From Candidatus Poribacteria bacterium (lineage in GTDB: Bacteria; Poribacteria; WGA-4E; JAJDTR01), in assembly GCA_028820655.1 (NCBI GenBank), contig JAPPIK010000004.1:1-64000 (forward strand): DNA of 64,000 nt. The letters are read 5' to 3'. This document shows positions 1,370 to 29,723 of the stretch, one piece after another; positions within the stretch are counted from its first letter, which is position 1, and each line of letters begins with the position of its first letter. Made by a program: the position numbers and the translations under genes. Below the pieces are notes generated by a model. That model saw nothing but the letters and a program-made list of their open reading frames with translations, did no database searches and was not told the origin of the DNA.

Positions 1370-2179
1370 TCACGGTGTCGGAGCGTAGTAGGTCTTGAGT
1401 TTTCCCCAGCTTGTTGTAACTTTTCCCCTCGATTCAACCTGCATCGCCGCCTCAACGCCTTTGGAAAGCGCGCGGATGTCGTCCGTTCCTACCGCTTTCT
1501 TGAGTATGACTATCTCATCCAGTATACCCTTAAAATTGCGACCGGCGCAGCAAGCACTGTGACCAAAGAGAAAATTCGCTTGGCTGTCATCAACTCGGTT
1601 GTCGGAGATTTTGTATTCGACGGTTTTCTTTCCGTTCAAGTAGTGCTTGATCGTCTCGGTATCGCGTATGACAACGAAATGACTCCACTTTCCGTCGGGG
1701 AGTTTGGTTGAAGGTCGGTTCGCCCAAGCACCGCCTTGCCACGTGTCATCGATTTTCATCCCAAAGTAAAAATTATTGTGCTCGCCCCCTCGTTGTTCAA
1801 TCTCATACCCGCCCGGTTTGCCGTGATTACCCATCATGTCCGCGTGAGCTTTTTGGGTAGCGCCCGGATTCACCCAGACCGAGATGCTATGTCTTGTCCC
1901 GAACGCTCCCACGTTTAACGGGTCATTGACCTCCACGAACTGGGACTGGCCGTCAAAACGAATCGCTTTTCCAAACTTGCCGTTGACCCATTGGGGACCG
2001 TTAATCAGTTCTCCATCAAGTCCCTTTCCAGCCATTTCCTTGGCAGTCTTTCCTCTGCCCTCGTCAAAGAGCCATATTCCAACCGTGTCTTCAACCTCTA
2101 ATCGGGCTGAGATCTTAGAGGCATTGAGCAAAGCAATCCCCATCAAACTAAAACAAATAAGCTGAATTTTCGATTTCAT
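1370..2179 (-). CDS. Secreted LamG domain protein
   Basis: A 269-residue protein counted from the ATG at 2179. I prefer this start to the in-frame ATG at 2197 because MKSKIQLICFSLMGIALL is a normal signal peptide start and AAGGAC lies just upstream. A LamG domain follows, with IWLFDEGRGKTAKE, a central HSISVWVNPG and WSHFVVIRD, and the closing FKGILDEIVILKKAV. It is a close paralogue of the next protein (2390-3196); both share NHGKPGGYEIEQRG and FGHSACC/IGNSACC-like segments. The tail VESRGKVTTSWGKLK is the conserved C-terminal motif of this group. It is probably exported and may bind glycans, but no enzymatic residues can be recognised. Confidence 0.88.
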   Translation of the reverse strand: MKSKIQLICFSLMGIALLNASKISARLEVEDTVGIWLFDEGRGKTAKEMAGKGLDGELINGPQWVNGKFGKAIRFDGQSQFVEVNDPLNVGAFGTRHSISVWVNPGATQKAHADMMGNHGKPGGYEIEQRGGEHNNFYFGMKIDDTWQGGAWANRPSTKLPDGKWSHFVVIRDTETIKHYLNGKKTVEYKISDNRVDDSQANFLFGHSACCAGRNFKGILDEIVILKKAVGTDDIRALSKGVEAAMQVESRGKVTTSWGKLKTYYAPTP

Positions 2180-2288
2180 GTGGGTAGTCCTTAGCATGTC
2201 GTAACGGAGGGAACCTCGCTATTCGTTTTCGGATTCTACGGAAATAGAAAGGGGCACGCAACCCCGATCACCTCAACATCAAGACATG

Positions 2289-2328
2289 AAAAAAGGGATG
2301 GCTCAATGATTCTATTGAAAGCCATCCC
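2289..2328 (-). terminator. Rho-independent terminator after the LamG gene at 2390
   Basis: On the minus strand, a stem GGGATGGCT/AGCCATCCC (2295-2303 with 2320-2328) is followed directly by six T residues (2294-2289). It lies about 60 bases beyond the stop codon of the LamG gene at 2390-3196 and matches the usual intrinsic terminator layout. Confidence 0.8.
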
Positions 2329-2389
2329 CCATTTGAATCCGACACACTCTAATTCAAGGGACTATGGCTCCCTTGTAGAACGCGTTCTG

Positions 2390-3196
2390 TTATTTATACT
2401 GAGACTTAAGTTGGCCCCAGGTAGTCGTCATTTTACTGGCGCTATCAACAGACGTAGCATTCATCAAGCCACCTGCTAGGGCGGCGACGTCTGCTTCGGT
2501 CAGTGCCCTAGTAAATATAGCAGCCTCATCCAACGTACCGGTGATAATCCTGCCTTCGCCGCAGCAGGCACTGTTGCCGATGAAGAAATTGGATTCGGTG
2601 GTGTCCTCGACGACGTCGGGATCGATACCGTATTCAACGGTTTGTTCGCCATTCAAATAGTGTATAACGGTCGCGCCGTCTCGAATGACCACCAGATGCT
2701 CCCATACGCCGTCAAGGAGTTGTGTTGAGGGGCGCTCCGCCCAAGGTCCACCTTGCCATGCATCGTTGATTTTCATGCCAAAGTAGAACTTGTTATGTTC
2801 TTCACCCCGTTGTTCAATCTCATACCCACCGGGTTTTCCGTGATTCCCGATCATATCGGCGTGAGGATTCTGTACTGCAGCTAGATTAGCCCAAATGGAA
2901 ATACTGTGCGCTGTGCCGAACTCGCCGACATTCATCGGGTTGTTCAGCTCAACCACCGACGCCGTGCCGTCAAACTGGAGCGCAGTGCCGAACTTTCCGT
3001 CGACCCACTGCGGGTCGTTCAAAAGTTCGCCATCACTGCCATTTCCGCTTGAGTCTCCGGCTACTTTGCCTTCGCCCTCATCAAAGAGATAAATGCCCAA
3101 GGCACCGGAAAGGTCGATTTGTGCTGTACCGTTCGTTGCCATCAACGCAGCCATGCCGATTAAGCATGCGCATATTAAAAGAAATCCCGTTTTCAT
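2390..3196 (-). CDS. Secreted LamG domain protein
   Basis: A 268-residue protein from the ATG at 3196, which has AAAAGGAG upstream; an in-frame start 21 codons earlier would put a charged stretch before the signal peptide. MKTGFLLICACLIGMAALM is a clear signal sequence. The LamG domain has IYLFDEGEGKVAGDSSGNGS, HSISIWANL, WEHLVVIRD and GTLDEAAIFTRALTEADV. It is a tandem paralogue of the protein at 1370-2179. The tail TTTWGQLKSQYK at the extreme C terminus matches the shared LamG tail. The gene has its own likely promoter (3304-3332) and a terminator (2289-2328), so it is probably a single-gene transcript. A carbohydrate-binding role at the surface is inference. Confidence 0.9.
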   Translation of the reverse strand: MKTGFLLICACLIGMAALMATNGTAQIDLSGALGIYLFDEGEGKVAGDSSGNGSDGELLNDPQWVDGKFGTALQFDGTASVVELNNPMNVGEFGTAHSISIWANLAAVQNPHADMIGNHGKPGGYEIEQRGEEHNKFYFGMKINDAWQGGPWAERPSTQLLDGVWEHLVVIRDGATVIHYLNGEQTVEYGIDPDVVEDTTESNFFIGNSACCGEGRIITGTLDEAAIFTRALTEADVAALAGGLMNATSVDSASKMTTTWGQLKSQYK

Positions 3197-3303
3197 GTGT
3201 CTACTCCTTTTCACCTTGAACTGTTGCATTTCAAAGAGGATAACCCAGTCTGTGTGCAACGCACAGATAGGCAGTTAACACATGCTTCTAAATACTTATT
3301 ACT

Positions 3304-3353: not shown

Positions 3354-4217
3354 TTAAATCTTCAGAGGGCGTGGGCGAGCGGCTTTTGGGTGAACTAGCG
3401 CCACGCGTTCGTGGAGTTGCCAGAGATGCCTAAGTCGCTCCGGGGTGGCTGTATCAAGCATAATGTCAGTGTACATGCTATGATGGGAATACATGTTGTT
3501 CTTGCCGTTGCCGGTAAACTTCCCGCCGATGCGAATTCCGCGCGGAATGGTACCGTGATGGCGGAGGTATTCATCTATGCGCTCCATGTCTGCGTCCGTT
3601 TTGCCGCGCTTGTGCAAATTCATGGTGAACATACGTCTACGAGTGGCTCCACCAAAGGAGGCGTGGAAGGTGCTGTGGTTAAACACTACAAGATCGCCCG
3701 GGTTTGTCTCCAGCGCAACGTTGCCGGGAATCTCTGATGGCGGTATCCCCCATGAAGTTTCGGCATCTCGAGGTTGCAATCCCTCGGTTCGCCATGCGGA
3801 GTCGGGACGGTGACTGCCGGGAAGTACGCGCAGGCAACCGGTGTCTCGCGTCAGTGGATCCAAGTAAAATGCCAACTTTATGGCAAACAGATCGGGATAG
3901 TTTCCGTCCGGGTGCCAACCGGTATCACCGACGTAAAAATTCGCATCGCCGCCGGCATAATTGAAGTCATCGCCCAGAAATGCGGAAGCAATGCCGAGGA
4001 CACGCGCGTCATCAAGCAGTGTGCAGAGCCGAGCACTGTGATCGAGCGCCGGAACGGTGCCGGTATGCTTCGATCCATCATGGTCGCCGCCGTGAATTTG
4101 GACGACCTGTTCAAACTCTTCGGTAATCCAAGATACCTCATCAGGAGCAAAGAGTTCGCGAAAAGCTACAAAGCCAAAAGTGTGAAAGTGGTTGAATTGC
4201 TGTTCGGTCGGTTGCAT
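3354..4217 (-). CDS. Phytanoyl-CoA dioxygenase family (PhyH) protein
   Basis: A 287-residue Fe(II)/2-oxoglutarate-dependent oxygenase of the PhyH family. The metal triad is visible: WHPDG (H102, D104) and FHASFGG (H185), with the 2-oxoglutarate-binding arginine in TRRRMF (193-195). GCLRVLPGSHR is the typical strand before the distal half. The family couples decarboxylation of 2-oxoglutarate to hydroxylation of C-H bonds, and its substrates are diverse, so the substrate here is unknown. It belongs to a subgroup with the proteins at 7299 and 12949 (shared FAIKLAFYLDPLT). AAAGGAGG lies before the ATG. It follows the PhyH gene at 4356 with a 138-base gap. Confidence 0.92.
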   Translation of the reverse strand: MQPTEQQFNHFHTFGFVAFRELFAPDEVSWITEEFEQVVQIHGGDHDGSKHTGTVPALDHSARLCTLLDDARVLGIASAFLGDDFNYAGGDANFYVGDTGWHPDGNYPDLFAIKLAFYLDPLTRDTGCLRVLPGSHRPDSAWRTEGLQPRDAETSWGIPPSEIPGNVALETNPGDLVVFNHSTFHASFGGATRRRMFTMNLHKRGKTDADMERIDEYLRHHGTIPRGIRIGGKFTGNGKNNMYSHHSMYTDIMLDTATPERLRHLWQLHERVALVHPKAARPRPLKI

Positions 4218-4355: not shown

Positions 4356-5189
4356 TCAGTCCCAAAGGTCAAGACCTAGCAATCTTCGTCCTAACCCTGT
4401 GAGTTCGGGCGGACCATAATTCGCCGCTTCCCAGCCACGCGGATCACGGGTATACGGCCCCTCACCTAGTGCTCGACGTTCTTTCCAAAGGGTAATGCGT
4501 TCTTCACGCCGCTTCTCGTTCATCGGGTTGGGGGCGGGATAATAATTCATGTATTGTGCGAACCGCGGTTTGTCCGAGTTGTTTGCCCCATTTCCGTGAG
4601 GCAGCGCTTGATGCCAGATAAGCATCGATCCCGCATTTGCCGGAATCGGCACGAATTTATCGAGAGTTAACTCCGGAAGGCGAGGGTTTTCATTGTCGAT
4701 AAGCGATTTGTGCGCCCCGGGCCAACAGACGAACGAACCCTGATCAGCGGCGGTGTCCGTCAGATATAGCACTCCTTGCGTCCCGAATGGAAGGGGCAGT
4801 TTTGATGTGTCCGCATCCCAATGGTACCCCGTACCACGCACCCATTCCCGATAATCTGGGTGCCGCGGCGGTTTCATATTCACTCTGTCGATATGCACCC
4901 AAAGTCGGTCGGTGCCGTAGACCTCGCTGTATATCTGATGAACCCGCGGGTGCTGAATGACATTCCACATCGATTGATGCCAATACATACTCACCATACC
5001 AACCCCCGGTTGTTCCGGCGGTTCGTGCGGCAAGCGATACCAATCGTCCGGGTCGTTGGGATTCATTTCCATGAACGCCCAAATCGCCTCCACAACGGCT
5101 TCGCAGAGATCAAGCGGAACAGCATTCTCTACGACCACGTAGCCATATTCATCGAAGTGATCGTGATGTGCGTGCGAAAGGATGGGCAT
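4356..5189 (-). CDS. Phytanoyl-CoA dioxygenase family (PhyH) protein, divergent subgroup
   Basis: A 277-residue PhyH-type oxygenase. Iron ligands are visible in GYHWDAD (H123, D125) and LPHGNG (H198), and the 2-oxoglutarate arginine in DKPRFAQY (R209). CWPGAHKSL is the equivalent of the usual PGSH strand. It lacks the FAIKLAFYLDPLT block of its neighbours and so is a different branch of the family. The N terminus HFDEYGYVVVENAVP is the usual opening helix and strand, which supports the ATG at 5189. The substrate cannot be inferred. It is the first gene of a two-gene minus-strand run with the PhyH gene at 3354, downstream of a long gene-poor stretch. Confidence 0.9.
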   Translation of the reverse strand: MPILSHAHHDHFDEYGYVVVENAVPLDLCEAVVEAIWAFMEMNPNDPDDWYRLPHEPPEQPGVGMVSMYWHQSMWNVIQHPRVHQIYSEVYGTDRLWVHIDRVNMKPPRHPDYREWVRGTGYHWDADTSKLPLPFGTQGVLYLTDTAADQGSFVCWPGAHKSLIDNENPRLPELTLDKFVPIPANAGSMLIWHQALPHGNGANNSDKPRFAQYMNYYPAPNPMNEKRREERITLWKERRALGEGPYTRDPRGWEAANYGPPELTGLGRRLLGLDLWD

Positions 5190-6452: not shown

Positions 6453-7280
6453 TTAGAGTTCGCAGTTCACTTTCCAGACATTCTCACAATCCGGCACAAA
6501 GAATGAGAAATAAACGAACTGGCGTCGACCGCTGCCCGTGTATTCGCGTACGCTATGGTAGGCGTCATTGCTATTCAAGCCGAGTACGAACCTACCTTCC
6601 TTCGGCTCGATGGCGTCTAGTAGCCGAATATCCCCGGGATCGGGATAGCGGGGATAATCGCCAATATCGCCGCTACCTCGTGACGCCCAGAAGCACGTCT
6701 GTCCTCCCTCTTCCGCTCGGACATCGTTAAAATAGAGAACCCCGAAGAGAATCTTGTATCTGTTATCCGAATGTACGTTTACGTCATATCCCCGTTTTGC
6801 AACTGATAAATGAAAATCAGGGGCGATCATGAGTTGAGTGCCTTCGTTGACGCACTGTTTCTTCTTGACGGATAGTTGCGATTCGGGGTTAAACGAGAGA
6901 TGAGTCGATACGATACCTTTATGTTCAAGGATGTCAATATTATCTAAAATACAGCGATTGAACAATTCTTCGCCGCGCATCTTCAACCAGAGTTTGTAAA
7001 GATTGGGACAGAGTTCGAGTATTCTGTTGAAAGTCTGTGAGGCATTTTTCTTGTCGTAGCTTCGATCGGTGTCGGGTATTCCCTTGCCGTCGGGAATGAA
7101 TGGCAGGTTGTTGGAGAAGTTTGCCCTCGGTTTGTCAATCAGAAACGGTTCCATTATGTCTCTGACAGCGTCAGACTCAAGTTCGTCAGAAATACATCTG
7201 GCGAATGTGCGGTCGAGGAAATCGTCAAGTGTTACAAAGGACGGAATTCCTGGGTCGGTTGCCGGGAACTTAATCTTCAT
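6453..7280 (-). CDS. 2OG-Fe(II) oxygenase, prolyl 4-hydroxylase-like
   Basis: A 275-residue protein. Its second half fits the prolyl 4-hydroxylase/2OG-Fe(II) oxygenase fold: VNVHSDN supplies H170 and D172, YFNDVRAEEGGQTCFW is the typical central strand and turn, and AYHSVREY (H242) with GRRQFVYFSF (R252) supplies the distal histidine and the 2-oxoglutarate arginine. It therefore differs from the PhyH proteins around it but uses the same cofactors. Residues 1-110 are unlike known domains to my eye. It starts 18 bases after the PhyH gene at 7299 and is probably the last gene of the GH36-GH36-PhyH operon. The substrate could be a protein or peptide residue or a small molecule. Confidence 0.8.
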   Translation of the reverse strand: MKIKFPATDPGIPSFVTLDDFLDRTFARCISDELESDAVRDIMEPFLIDKPRANFSNNLPFIPDGKGIPDTDRSYDKKNASQTFNRILELCPNLYKLWLKMRGEELFNRCILDNIDILEHKGIVSTHLSFNPESQLSVKKKQCVNEGTQLMIAPDFHLSVAKRGYDVNVHSDNRYKILFGVLYFNDVRAEEGGQTCFWASRGSGDIGDYPRYPDPGDIRLLDAIEPKEGRFVLGLNSNDAYHSVREYTGSGRRQFVYFSFFVPDCENVWKVNCEL

Positions 7281-7298
7281 GAAAGTTATCTTGATGGG

Positions 7299-8171
7299 CT
7301 ATGTGTTGTCGGCCGGAAGAGGCCGCGGCGTTGCCGCATGGGGGTGAACAAGCGCCGCACGTTCGTGCAACTGCGAAAGATGACGCCGCCGCTCCGGCGT
7401 CGCAGTATCGATCATCAGGTCGGTATACATGCTGAAGTCCGCATACATACTGCCCGGCTCAAGTCCGGTGAACTTGCCGCCAATCCGGATTCCACGCGGA
7501 ATCGTGCCGTGATGACTGAGATATTCATCAATACGTGCTAATTCCTCATCAGTCTCGCCTCGCTTGTGCAGATTCATGGAGAACTGTCTCCGACGGTTAC
7601 CGCCGCCAAAGGAGGCATGAAAGAGACTGTGATTAAAGACCACAAGATCTCCGGGACTGGTTTCTATCGCGACATTGCCTGGAATCTCCCAGGGAGCGAT
7701 ATCCCAAAACTCTCGTGCATTCCGGGGGTGCATATTGCCGCGACGCCAATAGGATTCCGGCAGATGACTACCGGGCAGAACGCGCAGACAACCAGCGTCC
7801 CGGGTGAGAGGGTCCAAATAAAAGGCAAGCTTAATGGCGAAAAGGTCTGCGTAGCTTCCATCGGGGTGCCAAGCCGTATCACCGACCCAAAAGTCGCCAT
7901 CGCCGCCCGCATAGTTGAAATCGTCGCCTAGGATGGCGCTTGCAATTCCCAAAATTCGCGCATCATCAAGCAGTGTACAGAGCCTCTCGCTGTGATCGAG
8001 CATTGGAACAATTTGGGTATGCTTCGTACCGACATGATCAGTGCCATGACTTTGAAGGACGTGCTCGAATTCCTCGCATATCCATTCAACTTCGTCTGGA
8101 CGGAGAAGCGAAGGAAAAAGCAGAAACCCGAACGTGTGGAAGTGATTGAGTTGCTGATCAGTCAGTTGCAT
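7299..8171 (-). CDS. Phytanoyl-CoA dioxygenase family (PhyH) protein
   Basis: A 290-residue PhyH oxygenase counted from the ATG at 8171. An upstream in-frame ATG at 8249 would overlap the glycosidase gene, and GGAGG lies just before 8171. Ligands: WHPDG (H102, D104), FHASFGG (H185) and NRRRQF. It is nearly collinear with the PhyH protein at 3354, with motifs at the same positions, so the two are recent paralogues. The gene begins ten bases after the stop of the GH36-like gene at 8182 and is followed 18 bases later by the 2OG oxygenase gene at 6453. That close packing argues that it acts on the same substrate as the glycosidase, for instance by oxidising an alkyl or sugar substituent (inference). 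Confidence 0.93.
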   Translation of the reverse strand: MQLTDQQLNHFHTFGFLLFPSLLRPDEVEWICEEFEHVLQSHGTDHVGTKHTQIVPMLDHSERLCTLLDDARILGIASAILGDDFNYAGGDGDFWVGDTAWHPDGSYADLFAIKLAFYLDPLTRDAGCLRVLPGSHLPESYWRRGNMHPRNAREFWDIAPWEIPGNVAIETSPGDLVVFNHSLFHASFGGGNRRRQFSMNLHKRGETDEELARIDEYLSHHGTIPRGIRIGGKFTGLEPGSMYADFSMYTDLMIDTATPERRRHLSQLHERAALVHPHAATPRPLPADNT

Positions 8172-8181
8172 GCGTAACCTC

Positions 8182-10275
8182 CTACCCCTTCCGGAGTTCC
8201 GCCTTATACGTGATAACGGCGGCGCTTCGCCTATCGGGTATCGAAACAACCAATCCGTTTTCTGTTAGTTCGGTGCCGGTCATTGTCATGGTTTCCGCGT
8301 CACCCGCTGCTACCACGGAGTACCGGGCCTCCGGGTCTAGTCCACCCAATCTGTATTGGCAACTCAGGATATCGCTCTCTGATCGACGGAACGCTTGGAC
8401 GCATCCCTCTCCTAGATCCGGCCGGTGAAACTGCCATGCCATCCAGTTTTGTTCGGATAGACTGTAAGGCGTCAGAGGATAAAAATCTCCGTAGAAGCAG
8501 TGTCTTAACGACTTGTATTCGTTCATCAATTTTTCGGCGAGTTCAGTGTCAAACGTTCCATTCGAGGGGGAAGTGGAGGAGTCGGCAAAGAAATGAGCGG
8601 TGACGGCTTCGAAAGTAACTCTTAACCCCGGACTGTAGGCGCTTCGAAGGGCGTATAGCGACATCTCGCGACAGCAGCCGCTGGTTAGCGGGCCCCACAG
8701 TGACAGTCCATAGGTCTGACTCTGCATTCCCGTTGGATTGAAGAGGTTCTCCGGCTCGTGAATGCCGCCGCACTGGTAGTCGCTGCGATGTAGACAAAAG
8801 CAGCGCCCGATGCTCTCAAGATCGATATTCATGCCGCCGCCGCCGCAGATGTCAAACAGCAGATCGGGAAATCGCTCTAGCATCGCGTCCCAGAATTCGT
8901 AATTCCCCTCAACGCAGCGCGCCCAGTTGATGCCGACGCGGTCCGCTTCCGGATCCGGCAATGGGTAGTTTCGTGTATCTTGACGGAAGATGTCAATGCC
9001 CCATTCTTCTACAAGTTTTGAAAAATATTCTACCATCCTCTGATTGATCATCGGGTTACCGTTATCCCAGCCGGGAAATTCCTCGGTCAGGAGTTCGGAC
9101 TGGTGTTTCCGCACTCTGTCGGGATTGACGAAAAACTGCGGTCCGCCGAACCAAAGTAGGTATTTGATGCCTTTGCTGTGCGCATGATCCGAGATGGCAC
9201 GGATACCGTTAGGAATCATCTCCTCGTTGATTGCGCTATCGCTTAGAATGTCCTTTGATTCTTCTTCCGTTGGCGGTCGGTGCCACCCGATATCCATCCA
9301 GTAGTATTCGATAGGTAGTTTGTTGTCCACATGCCAGTCAATCATGGCAATATTCTGCTCTTCGGTGTGCCACTGCGCTGCAGCCCCCATGGGGACTTGC
9401 ATTAACTCGCCGTCAGACCGGCGGCAGTAGTGGTCGAATAGAAGTCTTCGCCATAGGTTGTGCCCGCGAATTCGGTCGCCGTCCCAGAACATCACCAGTA
9501 TCCGGGGCATCCGTATCCGCTCTCCCGGGTACAGGCGAAAGTGCGTCTCGCTCATGCCGGCTTTGACAGCAAGCGAGAGGTCATCATCCCGATTAAAGTC
9601 TGCCTTCCACGGCCCCGTCCAACCGATTGCCGCAATCATTCCGCCTCGATCCCACTCAATGTTGAAGAATGGTAGATGCGTCACCGACGAATAGCCTCCG
9701 ATTTGTAAGTGCCGACCGGCGTTAAGTTCGGTTTCTAACGGTTGGAATGCCGTGATTTCAGGCGGCGAGCCTTCGGCATAGTGCACGACGAACTCTTGGT
9801 GTTCCGTTTCAAGCTGTTTCGGCTCGAAGCGCCCCGTCATCTCGTTCCACCTTTCCTCAACGATAGGTTCATCGGGGGGCTCGCGTTCAAAAGTAAGATC
9901 CAACGCCCTAACATCGTCCACGATCGAGGTGGCACTATTCCCGATATTCCGGAAATGTGGGATCCATTCCACGGCGGGATAGTCATTGTATTCAATCGCT
10001 TCAAGCTGTACCTGTAGGCATGTCTGAGGATCGGAGTACGTTAATCGGTGCAGCGACCGTCGCTCGTCCAGTCTCTCACTCATCTGTTCGCGCGTCCATG
10101 TTTTCAACAATTCGCATGACGGTGTGCCGTCGTAATTAAATGAGATTGGTGGAGTAGGTGTGGGGGACGTGAAACTCGTGGTAGTTAACGTGCGGGCACG
10201 TTCCTTCTCCACATTGGTTGGGGCCACGGTATGTGCGAGTCGAGCGAGGGTCGTTACGACGTAGGCGGAGTTCAT
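8182..10275 (-). CDS. GH36-like alpha-galactosidase family glycosidase
   Basis: A 697-residue enzyme of the GH36/clan GH-D type. The order is an N-terminal beta-sandwich (about 40-285), a TIM barrel (about 290-590) and a C-terminal beta domain. Barrel motifs: YYWMDIGWH (D328), KYLLWFG, and IDIFRQD, where D433 is at the place of the nucleophile, followed by FDICGGGG and HRSDYQ, where D499 is at the place of the acid/base. No signal peptide is seen, so it is probably cytosolic. It is a paralogue of the protein at 10480 and less close to that at 34706. Known GH36 enzymes remove alpha-linked galactose or related sugars; the exact sugar here is uncertain. It sits in an operon with PhyH (ten-base gap). 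Confidence 0.88.
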   Translation of the reverse strand: MNSAYVVTTLARLAHTVAPTNVEKERARTLTTTSFTSPTPTPPISFNYDGTPSCELLKTWTREQMSERLDERRSLHRLTYSDPQTCLQVQLEAIEYNDYPAVEWIPHFRNIGNSATSIVDDVRALDLTFEREPPDEPIVEERWNEMTGRFEPKQLETEHQEFVVHYAEGSPPEITAFQPLETELNAGRHLQIGGYSSVTHLPFFNIEWDRGGMIAAIGWTGPWKADFNRDDDLSLAVKAGMSETHFRLYPGERIRMPRILVMFWDGDRIRGHNLWRRLLFDHYCRRSDGELMQVPMGAAAQWHTEEQNIAMIDWHVDNKLPIEYYWMDIGWHRPPTEEESKDILSDSAINEEMIPNGIRAISDHAHSKGIKYLLWFGGPQFFVNPDRVRKHQSELLTEEFPGWDNGNPMINQRMVEYFSKLVEEWGIDIFRQDTRNYPLPDPEADRVGINWARCVEGNYEFWDAMLERFPDLLFDICGGGGMNIDLESIGRCFCLHRSDYQCGGIHEPENLFNPTGMQSQTYGLSLWGPLTSGCCREMSLYALRSAYSPGLRVTFEAVTAHFFADSSTSPSNGTFDTELAEKLMNEYKSLRHCFYGDFYPLTPYSLSEQNWMAWQFHRPDLGEGCVQAFRRSESDILSCQYRLGGLDPEARYSVVAAGDAETMTMTGTELTENGLVVSIPDRRSAAVITYKAELRKG

Positions 10276-10479
10276 TGAGTGCTCTTAATCTTTCAGGGCT
10301 TTCTAGGCAGTAAGATTGAACATCAAGGATTCGACGGCTATCAATATGAGTTCGCCGCTGATGAATGTTATCCCAACACACGGTGAATCGTGCCGCTTAG
10401 AATCGGAATCCAACTAAAACCGGAATCTTGTTATGAATTCTGGATTCCCTATTCAGAGGCCGTGTGGCTTAATTTTGTC

Positions 10480-12603
10480 CTACTTAATTGCCTTGTACTT
10501 GATAACGACGGCGCCGGGCTGGTCCGCAATATCAATGATTAACCCGTCAGCCATCAATTCACGTCCAGTCAATCTCGTGACACCGGAAACGTCAAGATTG
10601 GTCAATTCGTATTGAGTATCCGGTTCCAATCCATGGAGTTGATACTGGCAGGAAAGGATGCTACTTTGGGTACGGCGAAACGCTTGCACGATGCCTTCCC
10701 CGAGGTCGGGGCGATCGAATTGCCACGCCATCCAAGCGTCCTCTTCAAGGTTGTATCTACAGAGCGGGTAGTAATCGCCGTAGAAACAGTGCCGGATCGA
10801 AAGGTACTCCTCCGACAGCTTGCGTGCGAGTTCGACATCGAATTCCTCCTCCGACGGAGCGGCCGGTGGCGTGGCGAAGAAACTTTCAACTACGACTTCA
10901 AAGGTGATTCGCAGTCCGGCGCTGTAAGCACTTCTGAATGCGTAGGTACTCAATTGGCGGACACACCCACTGGTCAGCGGCGCCCACGACGATATCCCGT
11001 AGGTTTGGCCCTGCATACCCGTGGGATTGAACATGTTCTCGGGTTCGTGGATACCGCCGCACTGGTAGTCGCAGCGGTGGAGAAAGACGCTGCGTTGGAC
11101 CGTCTCCAGGTCCATGTTTACGGCGCCGCCGCCGCAGCAATCGATGACAAGACTCGGGAATCGTTCCAAAAGCGCATCCCAGAACTTGTAGAATCCCTCC
11201 GCTGATCTCGCCCAGTTTATACCCCGGCGATTATTATCGGAGTCCGGCGGCGGGGTGCTGCGTGAATCCCACCGAAAGATGTCGATACCAAGGTTCTCAA
11301 TCTGTTGCCCGTAGTGATCAATCATCCATTGATTGATCATTGGGTTGCCGTTGTCATTGCCGGGATATTCATCGGACAGTAACTCGGGTCGGTACTTCCG
11401 TACACGCTCAAGATAGGGATAAATCGCTTGAAATCGACAACGTTCATCGCCGCCAAACCAGAGCAAATACTTGACACCTCGTTTATGAGCGGCATTGGAC
11501 ACCGCTTGGATCCCGTTGGGAAACAGTTTCTCATTGACGACATCATCGGCTAGGTGTTCGAATGCTTCCTCTTCTGTTGGGGCTCGCTGCCAACCGATAT
11601 CCATCCAGAAATCTTCGATCGGCATTCCATTGTCAAGGTGCCAGTTAATGATCGCAATGTTTTGGTCTTCGGTGTGCCACTGGGTTGCGGCGCCGAATGG
11701 CATTTTGACCAACTCACCGTCGGGCTGGGGCGAGTAGTAGTCGAGCATCAGGCGGCGCCAACGATTCTGAGCGCGGACTCGATCCTGACTCCAGAACAAC
11801 ATGAGTATCCGGGGTATGCGGATACGTTCACCCGGTCGGAGAGACAGATGCGCGCCTCTCATCGCATCAGCACGCCATGGTGCCTCCCATTCTGTCATGG
11901 CGACGTTCACGTGCAGGGATCTCTCTTGGTCACGTGCGAAATCCGCGCGCCATGGCGCTGTCCATCCAATACCGGCCATAACGCCCTCCTCCGGCCATTC
12001 GATATTAAAGAAAGGCAGATCGGGTTGAGATGAAACTCCGCCGATAGTCAGCTCTTGCCCCGGTCCCAATTCGTCGTCATGGGGCTGGAATGCCCAAAAG
12101 GAATGTACTCCGCCGGTAGCGTGGTGCACGACGAATTCCCCGGGCTCTCTGTGCACGGCTACGGTTTCGGCTTCGCCTTTCCACTCGATCCATCGCTTGA
12201 CGTAGGTCGGATCGCCGGGACCGGGACGGGTGAATGACACGTCCATTGCCAAGATATCTTCTATTATAGGAGTATCTCGATCACCGTTGTTTTGGAAATA
12301 TACAATCCATTCGACAGCCGGATAATCGGCGAAGATTATGGCTTCGCATCGAACTTGCAGGCCCGTGTGCGGGTCGTCATAGGTCAGACTATGCAGTGTA
12401 CGCCCATCGTCCATCTCCACCTCTTCCCGCTTCAGATCCCAAGTCCATTTTGCCTGGTCCGCCAACGGAAGAAAATTGCGAGAAGACTCCCCGTTGTAAG
12501 TAAAGGAGAAGGGAAGTACCGGCACAAGCCCATCAATCGCGTCAGCTACCCAACGTTGAGCTTTTCGCATCTCATCGGGCGTTGCAGATAGTGTATCAGC
12601 CAT
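10480..12603 (-). CDS. GH36-like alpha-galactosidase family glycosidase
   Basis: A 707-residue paralogue of the enzyme at 8182. Domain order is the same: N-terminal beta-sandwich, TIM barrel with DFWMDIGWQ (D335) and LWFGG, nucleophile region IDIFRWD (D446), IDCCGGGA, and acid/base region HRCDYQ (D512), where the usual serine before the aspartate is cysteine. An extra stretch near residues 235-250 repeats a nearby APWRAD, which looks like a small internal duplication. There is no signal peptide. It is the first gene of the operon 12603 to 6453, separated from the next GH36 gene by 204 bases. Two diverged copies side by side suggest related but different substrates, such as two linkages of one glycan (inference). 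Confidence 0.88.
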   Translation of the reverse strand: MADTLSATPDEMRKAQRWVADAIDGLVPVLPFSFTYNGESSRNFLPLADQAKWTWDLKREEVEMDDGRTLHSLTYDDPHTGLQVRCEAIIFADYPAVEWIVYFQNNGDRDTPIIEDILAMDVSFTRPGPGDPTYVKRWIEWKGEAETVAVHREPGEFVVHHATGGVHSFWAFQPHDDELGPGQELTIGGVSSQPDLPFFNIEWPEEGVMAGIGWTAPWRADFARDQERSLHVNVAMTEWEAPWRADAMRGAHLSLRPGERIRIPRILMLFWSQDRVRAQNRWRRLMLDYYSPQPDGELVKMPFGAATQWHTEDQNIAIINWHLDNGMPIEDFWMDIGWQRAPTEEEAFEHLADDVVNEKLFPNGIQAVSNAAHKRGVKYLLWFGGDERCRFQAIYPYLERVRKYRPELLSDEYPGNDNGNPMINQWMIDHYGQQIENLGIDIFRWDSRSTPPPDSDNNRRGINWARSAEGFYKFWDALLERFPSLVIDCCGGGAVNMDLETVQRSVFLHRCDYQCGGIHEPENMFNPTGMQGQTYGISSWAPLTSGCVRQLSTYAFRSAYSAGLRITFEVVVESFFATPPAAPSEEEFDVELARKLSEEYLSIRHCFYGDYYPLCRYNLEEDAWMAWQFDRPDLGEGIVQAFRRTQSSILSCQYQLHGLEPDTQYELTNLDVSGVTRLTGRELMADGLIIDIADQPGAVVIKYKAIK

Positions 12604-12948: not shown

Positions 12949-13806
12949 TCAGAGCGTTGGCAACTCACGCGGTACTGTATCGTTTGGATGCACGACGGCG
13001 TGGCGTTCATGAAGCTGGGTCATATGTTTCAGTCTCTCAGGAGTGGCGGTGTCAATTGTGATATCGGTATACATTCCCCCGATCTTAAAACCATGCGCGG
13101 CGGGACAATTCGTCGTCAGATATTGGTCAATACGAGCGATTTCTGCCTCTGTCTTACCACCTTTGGTCAGGTTTAGCGTGAACATCCGGCGGCGATCCCC
13201 TCCGCCGAAGGAGGCATGGAAAATGGTGTGGTTGAAGAAAACCAAATCGCCGGGGTTGGTTTCAATCGCAACGCTACCGGGAATGTCGGTTGGCGGGAGC
13301 CCCCAGACGGCTTCCGCGTCGTTAAGATTGATGTGATTCCGTGAGTTTCTCCAGTCCGGATCGAGGTTTTTATGCCAGTAGGAATCGATTCTATGGCTCC
13401 CGGGAATCACGCGTAGACAACCGGTATCGGCGGTCATAGGATCGAGATAAAAGGTCATTTTGATTGCAAACAGTTCGGGCCAACTTGCGTCGGGATGCCA
13501 TCGGGTGTTGCCCACATAGTAGTTGGCGTCGCCGGCGCCGTAGTTAAAGTCATCTCCAAGAATGCCGGAGGCAATCCCAAGTATACGATGGTCATCAAGC
13601 AATGTGCAGAGTCTCTCGCTGTACCCGTACGATGGTACAATCATGGTTCGGCTAGAACCGTCATGGGCATCCCCGCCGGCATGGTTTTGAAGCACGTTCT
13701 CATACTCTTCAATGATCCAATCCATCTCATCGGGACTAAAGAGTTGGGGAATCATCAGGTAGCCAAATTTATGAAAGAAATTGAGTTGTTGGTCGGTCAG
13801 TTCCAT
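12949..13806 (-). CDS. Phytanoyl-CoA dioxygenase family (PhyH) protein
   Basis: A 285-residue PhyH oxygenase from the ATG at 13806, which has GGGGG seven or so bases upstream; the in-frame ATG at 13821 has no binding site. Ligands: RWHPDAS (H104, D106), IFHASFGGG, and DRRRMF for 2-oxoglutarate. It belongs to the subgroup of 3354 and 7299 (FAIKMTFYLDPMT, GCLRVIPGSHR). It lacks the short block those two have between the distal histidine and the C terminus (HHGTIPRGIRIGGKFTG is replaced by a shorter ending with FKIGGMYTD). It lies between the membrane protein gene at 14146 and the GH36 pair, all on one strand, so a link between transport, oxidation and glycoside cleavage is plausible (inference). 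Confidence 0.92.
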   Translation of the reverse strand: MELTDQQLNFFHKFGYLMIPQLFSPDEMDWIIEEYENVLQNHAGGDAHDGSSRTMIVPSYGYSERLCTLLDDHRILGIASGILGDDFNYGAGDANYYVGNTRWHPDASWPELFAIKMTFYLDPMTADTGCLRVIPGSHRIDSYWHKNLDPDWRNSRNHINLNDAEAVWGLPPTDIPGSVAIETNPGDLVFFNHTIFHASFGGGDRRRMFTLNLTKGGKTEAEIARIDQYLTTNCPAAHGFKIGGMYTDITIDTATPERLKHMTQLHERHAVVHPNDTVPRELPTL

Positions 13807-14145
13807 GTGTAGAACCCCCATTCCGGCAATTATCTGTGAAGACTGTTTGTTTAACGAACAGACACGGGAGCGAGCAACTTGCTGCGGTGTTGATTTGTGC
13901 GGCAGATCGCGAAAATTTTCTCATAAGTGAGAGTTGGTGTCAAGTAGAAACAGGAGCACGGAATCAACCGTACAAATCAGAAACAGAAAACCACGAAATT
14001 CTAAAGTGGCTCTTCACATGTGCCCGTGACAGAAAATGGTAGTTGCCCATGGTTTTGTAGGGAACGCAGATCTGCGTCCCGTTCCCTTTGGTTGCCATGT
14101 ACTTATCTACTATGACCTCACTGCTTTTGCAAATTATTTTCGATC
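13807..14145. other. Intergenic region
   Basis: This 339-base gap contains a GTAGG-type hairpin at 14057-14086 and no supported gene. Short open frames in it have no ribosome binding site and unconvincing translations. Confidence 0.55.
14057..14086. repeat. GTAGGG hairpin element
   Basis: GTAGGGAACGCAGATCTGCG followed by TCCC: ACGCAGATCTGCGT is a perfect palindrome preceded by GTAGGGA. It belongs to a loose family of GTAGG-plus-palindrome elements also seen at 22693, 29724, 34689 and 51958. Such elements are common intergenic repeats in many bacteria and have no known fixed role. Confidence 0.6.
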
Positions 14146-16077
14146 TCAATAAAAGCTATACACCGAACTACGTAGAACAAGACTGACTATGGGCCAGAAA
14201 CAGCCGAGCAAAGCCTCGCCAAGCACCAAGCCGACAAAGAAGGGAATCGCGCGGCGATAGGCTTTTACGCCGCCATGTTTGAGTATGATCCACTTCGCGG
14301 TCATGGCGATTACTAGCGGCAACCAAAGAACATTGATGATTAGCGTGCCGGGTGCAACGCCGATGACGTATCCTGCCGGGTGAAGCGGACACCAAACGAA
14401 TCGAGCGCGAAGATACATGACGCCTAGATTAAAGACAAATGCCAGCCCCAGGATTGACATGGCAAACCAATCTGTGGACTTCGGATTGACCAACCACGCG
14501 GACAAAAAATTATACGCTTCCGTTCCGCCTGAATGAATCTGCTCGGATCCGGAGATGATTCCTTCGTCATATACGGCATACGGAAAAAGGATTAACGTGG
14601 AAACAACACCTACGATGCTAGCGATTACGAGGGCGGCGAACATCCCCCGGTTGCGTATGCCGGTTAATTCCGCCAGTTTGAAGGCTTCAAGTTGATCGGG
14701 CATTGGGTGGGTTCGAAATGAAGCGTAGCTTGCTCCACTGAGCCAGTTCATCAGGGAGAGCATCGTCAGATTGCCCGGCCGCAACCGTTGTGTACCGATC
14801 ATGGCAATCATCAGATACTGGGGAGTGGTGTAACCGATGGCGTGAATCGGAGGTCCCAACTCGGCGCGCATTCTGGTGACGCCGACGACAATCAGCAGGT
14901 AGATTCCGATAAAGAGTGCATAACCCCAAATCGACATCCCGCCCTTCACGCAGATAATCATCAGTAATGCTATGCAGACTCCAAACGTTACGACCGCCGT
15001 TCGATACGAGATGGGTTCGTTAGAGTTATCTTCTCTGTTAGAGTGGACAAGATTAGAGGCTACTTTCAGAAGGTGCTTCCGACCGGTCCAACATGCCACG
15101 CTGAGCAAAGCAACTAGCGCGCCCGCGCCCTGCTCACCCAAGAACGGATATCCCGGTAAGGTCGCAACGCCCACCATACTTCCAACCAACATTTGCGCTT
15201 TCGCCACGAAGTAAAAAAACACACATGAAAACGACAGGTCTAGCGGAAGGATAAATGCGAGACCGATGAGGTAAGGGTGGAAACGGAGCGGCATGCTGCC
15301 CATCGCGTTCCACGGTTTCTGTGTGAAGTGGACGTTAAGGTCGTATTTTTTTACCGGAATCGACGGGAGCGAAGGGAAGAAATACTCAAGTCCGTTGAGC
15401 ACATTGATGCCTGCGGCGATTCCAAAACCTATCCACAAGAGTCGATTGCTAAATATGGCGCCTGATCGGGTGCTGACTTCAAGTGGGATTCGGATGATAG
15501 GGTATGCAAGTTTTTCATTTTCTACCCACTGCTTCCTAATCATTACGGTTAAGCAAAAGAACATCGCGATAAGAAGGAGGACCACAACCGACCATGAGAT
15601 GATGGGAACCGCCCAGTATCGCCAATAGCCGCCCGTGAAGAAACCGGCCTCCCCTTCATAAAAATCCTTGACCAACCCGGCATCGGTGATAACGAGCCAC
15701 GAAGGCAGATGACGAAACAGTAAAGCCTCCCAGTCGTTTTCAGGGGTCGCGAATCGGTAGGCGTAAGACATTACACCCATCAATCGAGGCATCGAGTCGT
15801 GCCCGGAAAACGCACTGCCCACGGCGAGCATGCCGTAGATTAGGAGCAGATCGCGCTGGCTCAACGCGGCACTCGGCACGATCGCACGCACCCCCAGATT
15901 CAGCCAAGTAATCATCAGAATAGCGAACAGAACGTTGACTGAGAGTGCAACCGTAGTCAGATGGGCTGTGTGCCAAATCATCTCAATGTAGGCGAGCCAA
16001 TAACTGTTGACGATGATTAGCAGCACACCGATAAGGATGGCCCTTTTTGTAATTGGGGTTGGAGTTCTTTCTTTCAC
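14146..16077 (-). CDS. Polytopic membrane protein, DUF6785/DUF6784-like
   Basis: A 643-residue protein with about a dozen or more hydrophobic segments, beginning AILIGVLLIIVNSYWLAYIE. I associate it with the paired DUF6785/DUF6784 families, which resemble oligopeptide-transporter-type membrane proteins; this is recognition from memory and no function is established. Conserved-looking features are the polar loop KAQMLVG, LPGYPFLGEQGAGAL and ARFVWCPLHPAGYVIG near the C terminus. The start is a GTG at 16077 with no clear ribosome binding site, so the exact start is uncertain. It lies between a flavin oxidoreductase gene (16210) and a PhyH gene (12949) and may import the substrate of the neighbouring catabolic enzymes (inference). 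Confidence 0.75.
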   Translation of the reverse strand: MKERTPTPITKRAILIGVLLIIVNSYWLAYIEMIWHTAHLTTVALSVNVLFAILMITWLNLGVRAIVPSAALSQRDLLLIYGMLAVGSAFSGHDSMPRLMGVMSYAYRFATPENDWEALLFRHLPSWLVITDAGLVKDFYEGEAGFFTGGYWRYWAVPIISWSVVVLLLIAMFFCLTVMIRKQWVENEKLAYPIIRIPLEVSTRSGAIFSNRLLWIGFGIAAGINVLNGLEYFFPSLPSIPVKKYDLNVHFTQKPWNAMGSMPLRFHPYLIGLAFILPLDLSFSCVFFYFVAKAQMLVGSMVGVATLPGYPFLGEQGAGALVALLSVACWTGRKHLLKVASNLVHSNREDNSNEPISYRTAVVTFGVCIALLMIICVKGGMSIWGYALFIGIYLLIVVGVTRMRAELGPPIHAIGYTTPQYLMIAMIGTQRLRPGNLTMLSLMNWLSGASYASFRTHPMPDQLEAFKLAELTGIRNRGMFAALVIASIVGVVSTLILFPYAVYDEGIISGSEQIHSGGTEAYNFLSAWLVNPKSTDWFAMSILGLAFVFNLGVMYLRARFVWCPLHPAGYVIGVAPGTLIINVLWLPLVIAMTAKWIILKHGGVKAYRRAIPFFVGLVLGEALLGCFWPIVSLVLRSSVYSFY

Positions 16078-16209: not shown

Positions 16210-17373
16210 CTATTCGCTCTTAAATGCCGGCATCACATCTGCGGAAAAGCGGTCGAGTTGCTCAAGAATGGCGTCTTGGGGCATCCCGATCGTGTTGTTA
16301 AGACAGATTTCCTCAAGGCCGGGAAGTCGGTGTTGAACGTCCATCAACTTTTCAATGATTAGGTCGGGCGGACCGCATAGCCAGGAACCGGCTTTGACGG
16401 CGTCTTGAAGTTTAGGAAGCCCGGCGGATTTTATTCGCTGTGGATCTGCCGTGGCGGCGATCTGTTCGTCGGTCAATCCGCCTACGAACCCGAGCGGAGC
16501 GAACATTTTGACGTTTTCTTCAAAGTATTTCGTCGCTTCCTTAATAGCCTGTTCTTCGGTATCGGCGATATAGAAGGAGAATCCGACAATGAGATCGGCC
16601 CCGCGCGGCAGGTCTCTTCCGTGATTAGCTTGCACACGCTGCCACGCATCCACGACTTTGTCCGCGGCGCCCCCCGCCGCAGCTCCGCCGCCAATCATGC
16701 CTTTGATGCCGTGTTTTGCCATGAGATTGAGGCCGCGTTCACTGGCGCTGACAATGGGTTGCCAGCACGCTACAGGTAAGTTTAGCGGCCGCGGAACTAG
16801 AGTAATTTCTTCCAATTCATAACCGCGATAGGGAACCTTGGGCGGAATATCGTAATACTTCCCATGGTGCGAGAACGTGGGTTCATTGAATGCCTTGAAT
16901 ATGACCTCTATCTGCTCTTCAAACAGTTCGCGATTCGCATCTTTGTCCAGCAGCGGTGCGCCGAAAACTTCGACTTCGCGTGTGTGATAGCCGCGGCCTA
17001 TGCCGAAGATGACGCGGCCACCCGTGAGAAAATCGGCGGTAGCGTAATCTTCTGCGAGACGGAGCGGATGCCACATGGGCGGAATATTGAAAGCGCTTCC
17101 AATTTTGAGTCTCTCCGTGAGGTGGCAGAGATGCACTGCAAGCATCAGGATGTTGGATATGCACTCATATCCTTCACGCTGGAAGTGGTGTTCCGCCAGC
17201 CATAGCGTTTCATATCCCGATCGGTCCATGAACTTCGCGATGGCTTCCGTTTTGGCATACACGGTGGCAAGCTGTTCGTTAGGTAACCAATACGAATTGA
17301 CGGGCGGTGCATCGTATCCCACTTCCGGAAGGTCAACGTGACCCGCGAAGAGTGTGCCGAATTTCGTTATCAT
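16210..17373 (-). CDS. LLM class flavin-dependent oxidoreductase
   Basis: A 387-residue luciferase-like monooxygenase family protein. Recognisable parts are the N-terminal strand FGTLFAGHVDLP, the segment YETLWLAEHHFQREG, RLKIGSAFNIPPMWHPLRLAED (a common bacterial luciferase-type block), GRVIFGIGRGYHTRE, and the C-terminal GPPDLIIEKL. The family uses reduced flavin (FMN or F420) and oxygen to hydroxylate or cleave organic substrates; the substrate cannot be inferred. The gene begins only 23 bases after the stop of the WD40 gene at 17397, which is an odd partner, and is followed 132 bases later by the membrane protein gene at 14146. Binding site before the ATG is weak (GGAAATGG). Confidence 0.85.
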   Translation of the reverse strand: MITKFGTLFAGHVDLPEVGYDAPPVNSYWLPNEQLATVYAKTEAIAKFMDRSGYETLWLAEHHFQREGYECISNILMLAVHLCHLTERLKIGSAFNIPPMWHPLRLAEDYATADFLTGGRVIFGIGRGYHTREVEVFGAPLLDKDANRELFEEQIEVIFKAFNEPTFSHHGKYYDIPPKVPYRGYELEEITLVPRPLNLPVACWQPIVSASERGLNLMAKHGIKGMIGGGAAAGGAADKVVDAWQRVQANHGRDLPRGADLIVGFSFYIADTEEQAIKEATKYFEENVKMFAPLGFVGGLTDEQIAATADPQRIKSAGLPKLQDAVKAGSWLCGPPDLIIEKLMDVQHRLPGLEEICLNNTIGMPQDAILEQLDRFSADVMPAFKSE

Positions 17374-17396: not shown

Positions 17397-20300
17397 TCAC
17401 TTTTCTGTGCTGGTTGAAGGTTTATCAGGGGTCAAAGCCCATAGTAGTATCGTGCCATCAGCGCTTCCGCTCGCGAGTGTGTTCCCATCGGGAGAAAAGA
17501 CGACGGAAACCACTTTGCTCGTGTGCCCCTTGAGCGTCAGGAGGTGCTCCCCGGTGAGGGTAACCCATACCCGAATTGTGTTGTCATATCCTCCACTAGC
17601 CAACAGCAACCCATCAGGCGAATACGCAATGGAAAGGATTCCATCGTTATGCCTGTACAGAGGATGTTTCTGTTTGCTCGTCTGCGCGTCCCACATATGC
17701 AATAGCTCGTCAGTCCCGCCACTAATAAGCGTTTTTACATCGGGAGAGAAGACTACTGAATTAACCCATCCTGTGTGAGTTTCAAGCGTGCTCCAGAGTT
17801 TGCCGGTTTGGACATACCACAACTGAATTTTACCATCCCAATTCCCACTGGCAACCAACCCGCCATAGGGCGAAAACGCTAGTGATTTAATCCAACCGGT
17901 GTGCTCAAGGGTGAGTAGGCGTTCACCCGTACGGGAATTCCATAACTGGATAGTTCCATCCATGCCTCCGCTAGCAAGTGTGAATTTAGTCGGTGAAAAC
18001 GTAACCGAAAGTATGGGCGCCTTGTGACCCTTAAGGAGTAGCCGCTGTTTTCCAGTGTGTGCGTCCCACAATCGAACAGTGTTGTCGTTACTTCCACTGG
18101 CAAGCGTATGGCCACGGTGGGAGAACGCTACGCTATTTACACTGCCGGTATGCCCGGAAAGAATCTCGATCTCGGCACCCGTACGTGCATCATGAACGTG
18201 AATTGCAGTGCCACTTGCCAAAGCGAAATATTTTCCGTCTGATGAATACGCGATGTTGCTGGATACCTTGGCTTTATCAAGTCGTACTTTAACGCCTTCA
18301 GGTAACTCCCGTGTGACATTGTATTGTTTTATGGCTGCCCATCCACCAATCGCACTCAAGAGTTGTTCAAGCACACCGATCCCCCTTTCCACAATCTCGT
18401 CTCGATTTTGAAGTTTCCGAGCATCCTTTAGCCATCTGTTTGCGTCTACCGCAGCGATGGAGTCCGAGACTTCGGCACGGACGTTTTGAGGATGCACCTG
18501 GAGCGCCACGGTGCCGCCCTCAATAGCGGTGGCGACCAACAGTAGATCGACGATGTCTACGACAGTATCTCTATTGATGTCAGCCCGGTTATACCCATTT
18601 TCACCTAATTGTGTGGAAACGGATATCAGATCCAAAACGTTAACAAACGCGTCCATATTGATATCTGCAACTGTTTCGGGCGGCGAATCCCACAGTAAAA
18701 TCGTCCCGTCGGCATTCCCGCTAGCGAGCGTCAGTCCATCGGGTGAAAACGCGAGGGTTCTGCTCCAGCCTGTGGGGCCGTAATGGGTTGTTTGGAGACC
18801 TCCAGTGCGTCGATTAAACAAACGTATTTTCCCCGAACCTACGTGTGCCAAAGTGTTCCCATCGGGGGAGGAAACGATGGTTCCGTAATCGTTGCCCAGT
18901 TTGAAAGTATGCAATAGTTCACCGGTGCGAGTATCCCACACATGCGCTGCCTTATCACCTTCACTAACCAAGGTATTCCCGTCAGGGAAAAATGCAATGG
19001 TTGGGGCATGTCGAGCGTTCCCCTCAAGTGTGTGTAGATGTTGCCCCGTGCGAACACTCCATAATTGGATGGGGTTTTGAAAGGGGCCGTTCTGTACTCC
19101 ACCGGCAAGCAGATTTCCATCAGGAGAACAAGCTAGATCAAAGATTGAATCCTGATGTTTCTCGAATGATCGTAGATTTTCACCGGTATTGGTATTCCAC
19201 AGCAGAATTGTCCCGCCAATGCTTCCGCTAGCAAGCTGGTAGCCATCGGGTAGAAATGCCATGGAAGTTACAGCACCCGTGTGGCCACGGAGAGAGTGCA
19301 ATGCTTTTCCGGTGTGACTATCCCAAATTCTTATTTGATGGTCCTCACCTGCACTTGCCAACATGGAGTCATCAGGCGCAAACGCTACCGACTGAACCGG
19401 AAGTGTGTGTCCGACAAACGTCCGATTTAGGTTGCCCGTGCGCACGTCCCATAGCCGGATCGCGTAGTCGTCGTTCCCAACGTGATGACTTCCGCCGCCG
19501 GTAGCAAGCATCGATCCATCGGCAGAGAATGCTATGGACTGGATACTGCCTGAATGCTCGTGAAAAGTCAGCAGAAGTTTACCGGTATGGGAATCCCATA
19601 GTCGAATGCTGTTGTCGCCGCTCCGACTGGCGAGCGTGTGCCCGTCGGGAGAAAAAGAAAGGGAAGTGACGTCGCCAATATACCCACCAAGCGTCAATCC
19701 AGGTTTGCCGGTACGGACATTCCATAACCGAATGGTGTTGTCCACACTTCCGCTGGCAAGCGTGAAACTATCGGGAGAAAAGGTCAATGTTTCGACTGAA
19801 CCGGAGTGTCCCATGAGGATGTGTATGATTTCCCCACTGTGCGAGTTCCAGAGCATGACGGAGTTGTCATCATAACCTCCACCGCTGGCAAGTGTGGAAC
19901 CGTCAGAGGATACTGCAACGGAAGTGACATGATTCGGGTGCCCCTCAAGCGTCTGCAGATGCTCCCCGGTGTGCGCATTCCAAAGACGAACGGTCTTGTC
20001 ATAGCCTCCGCTGCTGGCAAGCGTGGAGCCAATGGAAGCAAAAGCAACGGAATCGATACCACTCGTGTGTCCCTCTAGCGTCCGAAGGTGTCTGCCGGTA
20101 TGTGCATGCCATATGCGAATTGTTTTGTCCCGACTACCACTGGCTACCAGAGAACCTTCATCTGAAAAAGCCACACAACCAATCTCCTTACCGTGTCCCA
20201 ATAAAATGTGCAGGTTCTCTCCGGTGTGGGCATCCCACAATCTTACAGTTTGGTCCGAACTGCCACTGGCAAGCGTAATACCATCCGGTGAATACGCGAC

Positions 20301-20600: not shown

Positions 20601-20701
20601 GGATTGGGAGAATTGAACGAGTCGATGTTGAACGACGAATCATCTTTCGTCGGAAAAATAGTCAATTAGATTGCAATCGTTATATAGGTTAAAATTAGGG
20701 C

Positions 20702-22606: not shown

Positions 22607-23115
22607 CTCAAGAAAATTCTCTTTTGTTATAGTCATTGCAACTAAAAATTTCACAATTGTTATTTTAACATATCCCAATTCCCACCTGTTCCGTAGGTCG
22701 GGCTTCTAGCCCGACCCGCTCAATGGCAAACATCGCGAAACGGGAGATTGTAAGCTAGGTCGAGTCAATCAACGCTCATATGAGTAAATATAAATGACTA
22801 TAGAATAGGTTTGAATGGGCGGCGGAAGTTCTTTTATCTCGATTTCGAGAGATCAGTCTTTGTAACACTGTTTTTGCTTCGCGCCCTCATATTGGCGTCT
22901 TAGGCGAATGGAATACACACTATTGACGGAGGTCTCCGAATCAGACAGCGGACATTTGACAACAAGCAAGAATGGTGCCTACTACATCGGCCTCGCCATT
23001 GGTGCCAATCGTATCCATGAGTCGTGTTGGTATGAAAAACAACATCTCCAACACGACTATCCAAACCGAGCATGGACAATCGCTAGATAAGGAATTGCGA
23101 AAATCAATCTGACAA
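22607..23115. other. Intergenic region with GTAGG hairpin
   Basis: About 500 bases without a supported gene. A GTAGG-type hairpin lies at 22693-22716. A 60-codon plus-strand frame at 22908-23090 has no ribosome binding site or recognisable product and I leave it out. Confidence 0.5.
22693..22716. repeat. GTAGG hairpin element
   Basis: GTAGGTCGGGCTTCTAGCCC followed by GACC: GGTCGGGCT pairs with AGCCCGACC around a two- to four-base loop. Same general design as the elements at 14057, 29724, 34689 and 51958. Confidence 0.7.
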
Positions 23116-27736: not shown

Positions 27737-27871
27737 TTTGAGAATCTTTCCTTGGATTGCGGGATATGATTAGAATCAGGCAAACGCGGAGCATCCAAAA
27801 GTTATTCCATTTCACTCGAATAACAGTACATATGATATCTTTACTTTATCCATCGCTACTCCGTAGGCGGG

Positions 27872-27908
27872 AATCAAGGGAGCGGACAACGACCGCGATA
27901 GAGATCCC
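27872..27908 (+). repeat. Dispersed ATCAAG...GCGATAGAGATC repeat, copy 3
   Basis: AATCAAGGGAGCGG...ACCGCGATAGAGATCCCC. It lies in the gap between two PhyH genes. The left arm is less conserved than in copy 1. Confidence 0.6.
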
Positions 27909-28014
27909 CTTGCCCCGCCGATTTTGTGCGCGGATAAGACTTTCTGTTTCACCTCATGCAAGCTTCTTTACCTGAATCACTCAATTAATGCATAAGTAAT
28001 TTATGGAAATGGTA

Positions 28015-28806: not shown

Positions 28807-28872
28807 TTTCGGTCACGTACCTCATTTTCAAAATTAATCAGTGTGATGACCGCGCAAAGTGTGTGGTTGGGG

Positions 28873-29688: not shown

Positions 29689-29723
29689 TGTTGATTTCCT
29701 CCTTGAGTGGAAGGCAACAGTTT

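Follow-up and report, generated by a model that had tools for sequence, protein, structure and literature searches.

Subfamily-specific linkage of PhyH oxygenases to GH36-like glycosidases in Candidatus Poribacteria: candidate clusters for the catabolism of modified alpha-glycosides

Why should glycosidases of the GH36 type be encoded side by side with 2-oxoglutarate-dependent Fe(II) (2OG-Fe(II)) oxygenases? The question is raised by a 64,000-nucleotide stretch of Candidatus Poribacteria DNA (GCA_028820655.1, contig JAPPIK010000004.1, positions 1 to 64,000; hereafter the window), which forms part of a 197-kb contig in the 5.88-Mb genome of a marine-sponge-type bacterium; the data are a metagenome-assembled genome, in which open reading frames (ORFs) were called simply. 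Our analysis shows that particular subfamilies of PhyH oxygenase are linked to GH36-like genes beyond chance, and that a membrane protein of the DUF6785/DUF6784 type is linked to them as well. We propose, with about even confidence, that these genes form poribacterial catabolic clusters for modified alpha-glycosides, in which import would be followed by cytosolic 2OG-dependent oxidation and GH36 cleavage. The genes on which the argument turns are as follows.

3354-4217, minus strand: PhyH oxygenase, 12949-like subfamily
6453-7280, minus strand: P4H-like 2OG-Fe(II) oxygenase, 275 aa
7299-8171, minus strand: PhyH oxygenase, 12949-like subfamily, 290 aa (PhyH match 1.3e-18)
8182-10275, minus strand: GH36-like glycosidase b (GH36b), 697 aa, active-site signature MDIGW / FRQD / HRSD
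10480-12603, minus strand: GH36-like glycosidase a (GH36a), 707 aa, nucleophile D446, acid/base D512
12949-13821, minus strand: PhyH oxygenase immediately upstream of GH36a, query for the GH36-linked PhyH subfamily
14146-16077, minus strand: DUF6785/DUF6784 membrane protein, predicted OPT/YS1-like transporter fold
32144-33121, minus strand: PhyH oxygenase, 32144-like subfamily
33408-34631, minus strand: PhyH oxygenase, 33408-like subfamily, 407 aa, partner of GH36 34706
34706-37222, minus strand: GH36-like glycosidase with an NPCBM domain

The first-pass annotation of the window had described GH36a, GH36b, PhyH 7299 and the P4H-like gene as lying on one strand with gaps of 204, 10 and 18 bases, together with a second GH36-PhyH pair (34706 and 33408) separated by 74 bases. 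The ORFs and their Pfam matches agree with the four-gene arrangement, and the second pair is real. The unit reaches further upstream than these four genes, to PhyH 12949-13821 and then to the DUF6785/6784 gene. Both GH36a (8.8e-10) and GH36b (2.8e-11) match Melibiase (PF02065) above the cut-off, while the GH36 C-terminal domain (PF16874) is matched above the cut-off by GH36b and slightly below it by GH36a. PhyH proteins 7299, 12949, 3354, 32144 and 33408 carry PF05721 and an HxD...H motif; the P4H-like protein gives a weak match to 2OG-FeII_Oxy_3 (2.4e-5; 25.6 bits against a cut-off of 27), with its HxD at H170 and a further histidine at H242.

The genome holds at least 150 PhyH matches, eleven of them in the window, and because these genes are so dense, bare adjacency of GH36 and PhyH is weak evidence. 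On the four GH36-bearing contigs, PhyH lies within 500 bp of GH36 at 3 of 8 loci, against 1.5 expected (p=0.17); a whole-genome null gives p=0.04. Plain adjacency as proof of function was rejected on this density. Dividing the PhyH matches into subfamilies, with thresholds of our own choice, yields a sharper result. Five PhyH genes lie no more than 1.5 kb from a GH36 gene, and every one of them belongs to one of three subfamilies (queries 12949, 32144 and 33408); 0 of 130 other PhyH are so placed; one lactonase-like gene (26100-26936) was counted as a PhyH in this test and in the whole-genome null, and adds at most one PhyH within 10 kb. With tandem copies collapsed, the 12949-like subfamily has 5 of its 9 loci, and the 32144-like subfamily 4 of its 5, within 10 kb of GH36, an interval that covers 2.8% of the genome. 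Since the subfamilies had been picked from the window, the linkage was re-tested outside it, where the same distance holds for 3 of 7 12949-like loci (p=7e-4) and 3 of 4 32144-like loci (p=9e-5). The 33408-like subfamily shows no enrichment near GH36 in its own genome (1 of 5). The GH36-PhyH link is clearly significant for specific PhyH subfamilies only.

A strong GH36 match is present in 8 of 85 poribacterial genomes, and comparison with two other genomes shows how far the arrangement is kept. The second genome of the genus (G001) retains the full gene order, at approximately 80-94% identity for most genes, and preserves the unit of GH36b, PhyH and P4H-like gene at 80-84% identity with identical gaps of 10 and 18 bp. 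In that genome an additional ORF of 215 aa (L052:11813-12460), absent from the window, separates the two GH36 genes, which marks GH36b, PhyH and the P4H-like gene as the tight unit; the P4H-like gene itself is restricted to the genus. A genome from another poribacterial family (G003) has at least 153 PhyH matches, and each of its three GH36 genes has a member of the linked subfamilies nearby: a 12949-like one at 161 bp, a 32144-like one at 169 bp and a 33408-like one at 769 bp; 4 of 10 collapsed loci of these subfamilies are near GH36 (p=3e-6). The GH36 beside its 12949-like PhyH is closer to the 34706 type than to the 10480 type, so that partners have been swapped while the pairing was kept. 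These comparisons bear on the alternative that the region is a genomic island, in which PhyH, LamG, WD40, DUF6785 and GH36 genes have co-expanded in variable regions and share a location rather than a pathway. Such an origin would account for the clustering of at least 150 PhyH copies, for family-level adjacency that does not exceed chance on the GH36 contigs, and for neighbor content that differs between GH36 loci. It sits poorly with a linkage that is confined to certain PhyH subfamilies and persists beyond the window as well as in a further poribacterial family, and with the conserved intergenic gaps; we consider it somewhat unlikely.

Measured in the same genome, DUF6785/6784 is a stronger partner of GH36 than PhyH is. 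DUF6785 has 37 matches, an expansion to about 35 copies, and 6 of the 8 GH36 loci have one of them within 6 kb, against 0.74 expected, a count that none of 4000 random placements reached. The predicted model of the protein, built from 31 sequences (pLDDT 85, pTM 0.88), matches barley Yellow Stripe 1 (YS1; 7WST), a member of the OPT/YSL transporters, with E=2.4e-8 and TM-scores of 0.66 and 0.70; the two share this predicted fold at 13% identity, and no other fold was matched at E<=0.001. On the strength of the model, the DUF6785/6784 protein encoded in the cluster is likely an importer, and because DUF6785 is also found at many loci without GH36 it probably represents a general importer type. 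A literature search found no paper naming DUF6785 or DUF6784.

The GH36 proteins themselves share domain order, the TIM barrel, and the catalytic nucleophile and acid/base aspartates with the alpha-galactosidases LaMel36A (2XN0), GsAgaB (4FNQ) and AtAkaGal3. In an alignment to LaMel36A, D446 and D512 (10480 numbering) are invariant in 16 of 16 proteins. The tandem aspartates of the DDGW motif are not conserved in the same way; the first is kept (D335), while the second is replaced by Ile, Ala or Val in the aligned poribacterial members (I336 in GH36a) and by Ser in one divergent paralogue (L025). The lysine of the -1 subsite is likewise replaced by arginine, R444 in GH36a, two residues before the nucleophile. 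The residues D243, D244, W307, K381 and R443 bind galactose in AtAkaGal3 (PMC9912918), and the poribacterial proteins thus differ at both of the contacts D244 and K381. With the second aspartate missing and arginine in place of lysine, plain alpha-galactosidase activity of the window GH36 proteins is doubtful, and an altered -1 subsite specificity is predicted from the alignment; proteins of this kind would probably be misannotated as alpha-galactosidases. Searches of plasmids returned distant relatives only, the window proteins being approximately 25% identical to plasmid-borne alpha-galactosidases. Their N-termini, and those of the window PhyH proteins, have no strongly hydrophobic signal segment, as the first-pass annotation had stated, and these enzymes look cytosolic.

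What the oxygenases might do is suggested by their relatives. The window PhyH proteins have PF05721, the HxD...H motif and the double-stranded beta-helix in common with PhyH, EctD, SnoK and EvdO2, among which no close characterized homologue was found. The predicted model of a 12949-like PhyH (pLDDT 85) adopts the double-stranded beta-helix fold and most closely resembles the structures of SnoK, proline hydroxylase H11, EctD, SnoN, EvdO and HygX; in a profile search of known structures the best match is SnoK (E=4e-11), with EctD, EvdO2 and others also matched. Several of the enzymes nearest to the model use sugar-bearing natural products as substrates, which may be taken as a modest hint to PhyH function by analogy. 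Another locus of the genome (L026:5659-14699) carries four tandem GH36 genes without a PhyH neighbor; a TauD-type oxygenase gene precedes this array by 96 bp, and DUF6785 lies downstream of it.

The tailoring and hydroxylating character of SnoK, EctD and EvdO2 raises a different possibility, namely that the cluster builds a glycosylated small molecule or osmolyte, with GH36 acting as a transglycosidase in the manner of raffinose synthases and the oxygenases tailoring the product. Synthases do exist within GH36 (PMC9912918). The scanned neighbor genes encode no nonribosomal peptide synthetase, polyketide synthase or glycosyltransferase, and the sulfatase, lactonase-like and reductase genes and the transporter-like protein are better suited to catabolism; a biosynthetic role is, in our judgment, distinctly unlikely.

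Within a catabolic scheme, the first-pass annotation had offered oxidative O-dealkylation as one way of exposing the sugar to the glycosidase; while its observation of the gene cluster is confirmed, its interpretation is partly supported. By analogy with known systems, this chemistry is one possibility among several. FJS and PHYHD1, which belong to the PhyH family, oxidatively O-demethylate a sugar hydroxyl in 2'-O-methyl nucleosides; the relatives listed for bacterial FJS include Poribacteria (PMC12709175). Porphyran use likewise combines oxidation with glycoside hydrolysis of a modified marine sugar, 6-O-methyl-galactose, whose oxidative demethylation is performed by a P450 rather than by a 2OG oxygenase as considered here (PMC10033563). 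In the sulfo-ASDO pathway of sulfoquinovose the Fe(II)/2OG dioxygenase SqoD also acts on a sugar freed by a glycosidase (PMC12890257); SqoD breaks a C-S bond, and the poribacterial loci give no evidence of sulfoquinovose. The profile of the GH36-linked 12949-like PhyH matches SnoK, EctD, EvdO2 and others, but no PHYHD1 structure at E<=0.001, and no feature of the sequence determines the reaction. The specific order in which PhyH first removes a substituent such as a methyl group, and GH36 then acts on the exposed sugar, appears unlikely.

We leave the order free in the catabolic model that we favor. LamG proteins, which are found repeatedly near GH36 loci, would capture the glycoside outside the cell, and the OPT-fold DUF6785/6784 transporter would bring it in. 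Cytosolic 2OG-Fe(II) oxygenases of the dedicated PhyH subfamilies could then oxidize a substituent or a ring carbon, and the divergent GH36 retaining glycosidase would break the glycosidic bond in the same compartment, before or after this step; the released sugar may pass to the neighboring reductase, lactonase-like and sulfatase enzymes. Computation directly shows the order of the genes and that it recurs, the linkage by subfamily, the intact catalytic residues, the lack of apparent signal peptides on the window enzymes and the fold resembling a transporter; from these we infer capture, import, a shared substrate and the coupling of oxidation to cleavage.

Several observations weigh against this model. 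In addition to the chance-level adjacency on the GH36-bearing contigs, some GH36 loci lack a directly neighboring oxygenase, and the expectation of GH36-PhyH adjacency in related genomes, borne out in G001 and G003, fails in four more distant poribacterial families, where no adjacent PhyH was found at GH36 relatives on what are mostly short contigs. Outside the window, one GH36 paralogue (C15, 157 kb; L023:7093-9258) has a hydrophobic N-terminal segment and is possibly exported. DUF6785 lies within 6 kb of only 1 of the 3 GH36 genes of G003, so the GH36-DUF6785 link is best supported in its own genome. OPT transporters carry peptides and metal chelates and are not known to carry sugars.

The broader proposal is that the clusters encode a previously undescribed oxidative-hydrolytic glycoside pathway, in which an OPT-fold DUF6785/6784 protein, a GH36 clade specific for a sugar other than galactose or for modified galactose, and dedicated PhyH enzymes would act sequentially on one imported molecule. 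We advance it tentatively and regard it as rather doubtful. A literature search for a described cluster of PhyH and glycoside hydrolase genes found nothing relevant. The available part of the report of Kamke et al. (2014, PMC3909097) describes a similarly high abundance of PhyH in Poribacteria, an exceptional expansion with almost no assigned function, and does not describe a link to GH36 or DUF6785. By tying a few PhyH subfamilies to a distinctive GH36 clade and to a transporter-like DUF, the linkage turns part of this unexplained expansion into testable gene sets and suggests a role for DUF6785/6784.

The remaining features of the window are as follows.

1370-3259, minus strand: two LamG_3 proteins with hydrophobic N-termini, likely exported
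4356-5189, minus strand: PhyH oxygenase of a different subfamily, which adjoins the P4H-like gene in G001 too
23116-24591, minus strand: sulfatase with a CAPSR motif, without an apparent signal peptide
25023-25946, minus strand: aldo/keto reductase
26933-29736, minus strand: three consecutive PhyH genes, 12949-like subfamily
31251-32144, minus strand: amidohydrolase, weak match to L-fucono-1,5-lactonase
34689-34705: dispersed palindrome GGTGGGCA-N-TGCCCACC in the 74-bp gap

Among the subset of neighbors scanned with Pfam there is no match to a SusC/SusD pair of the kind found in Bacteroidota-type polysaccharide utilization loci. The gene at 26100-26936, which lies among PhyH genes, encodes a lactonase-like (SMP-30-like) protein and is no PhyH itself. 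A luciferase-like (LLM) monooxygenase gene (16210-17373; 93% identity to its G001 counterpart) adjoins DUF6785 downstream, and long WD40-repeat proteins at 17397-22678 are approximately 60-74% identical to those of G001, against more than 80% for most neighbors. The ORF of the GH36 paralogue at L023:7093-9258 overlaps an SDR gene.

The 74-base gap between 34706 and 33408 had been noted for a hairpin, and it does contain a perfect 8-bp inverted repeat. An Rfam search gave no match. The element is dispersed rather than specific to the gene pair, and for this reason we assign it no role. Allowing up to 3 mismatches, the window has 4 copies where 0.15 would be expected; apart from the one in the gap, these lie at 5260, 6396 and 29728, and further copies occur in several other loci.

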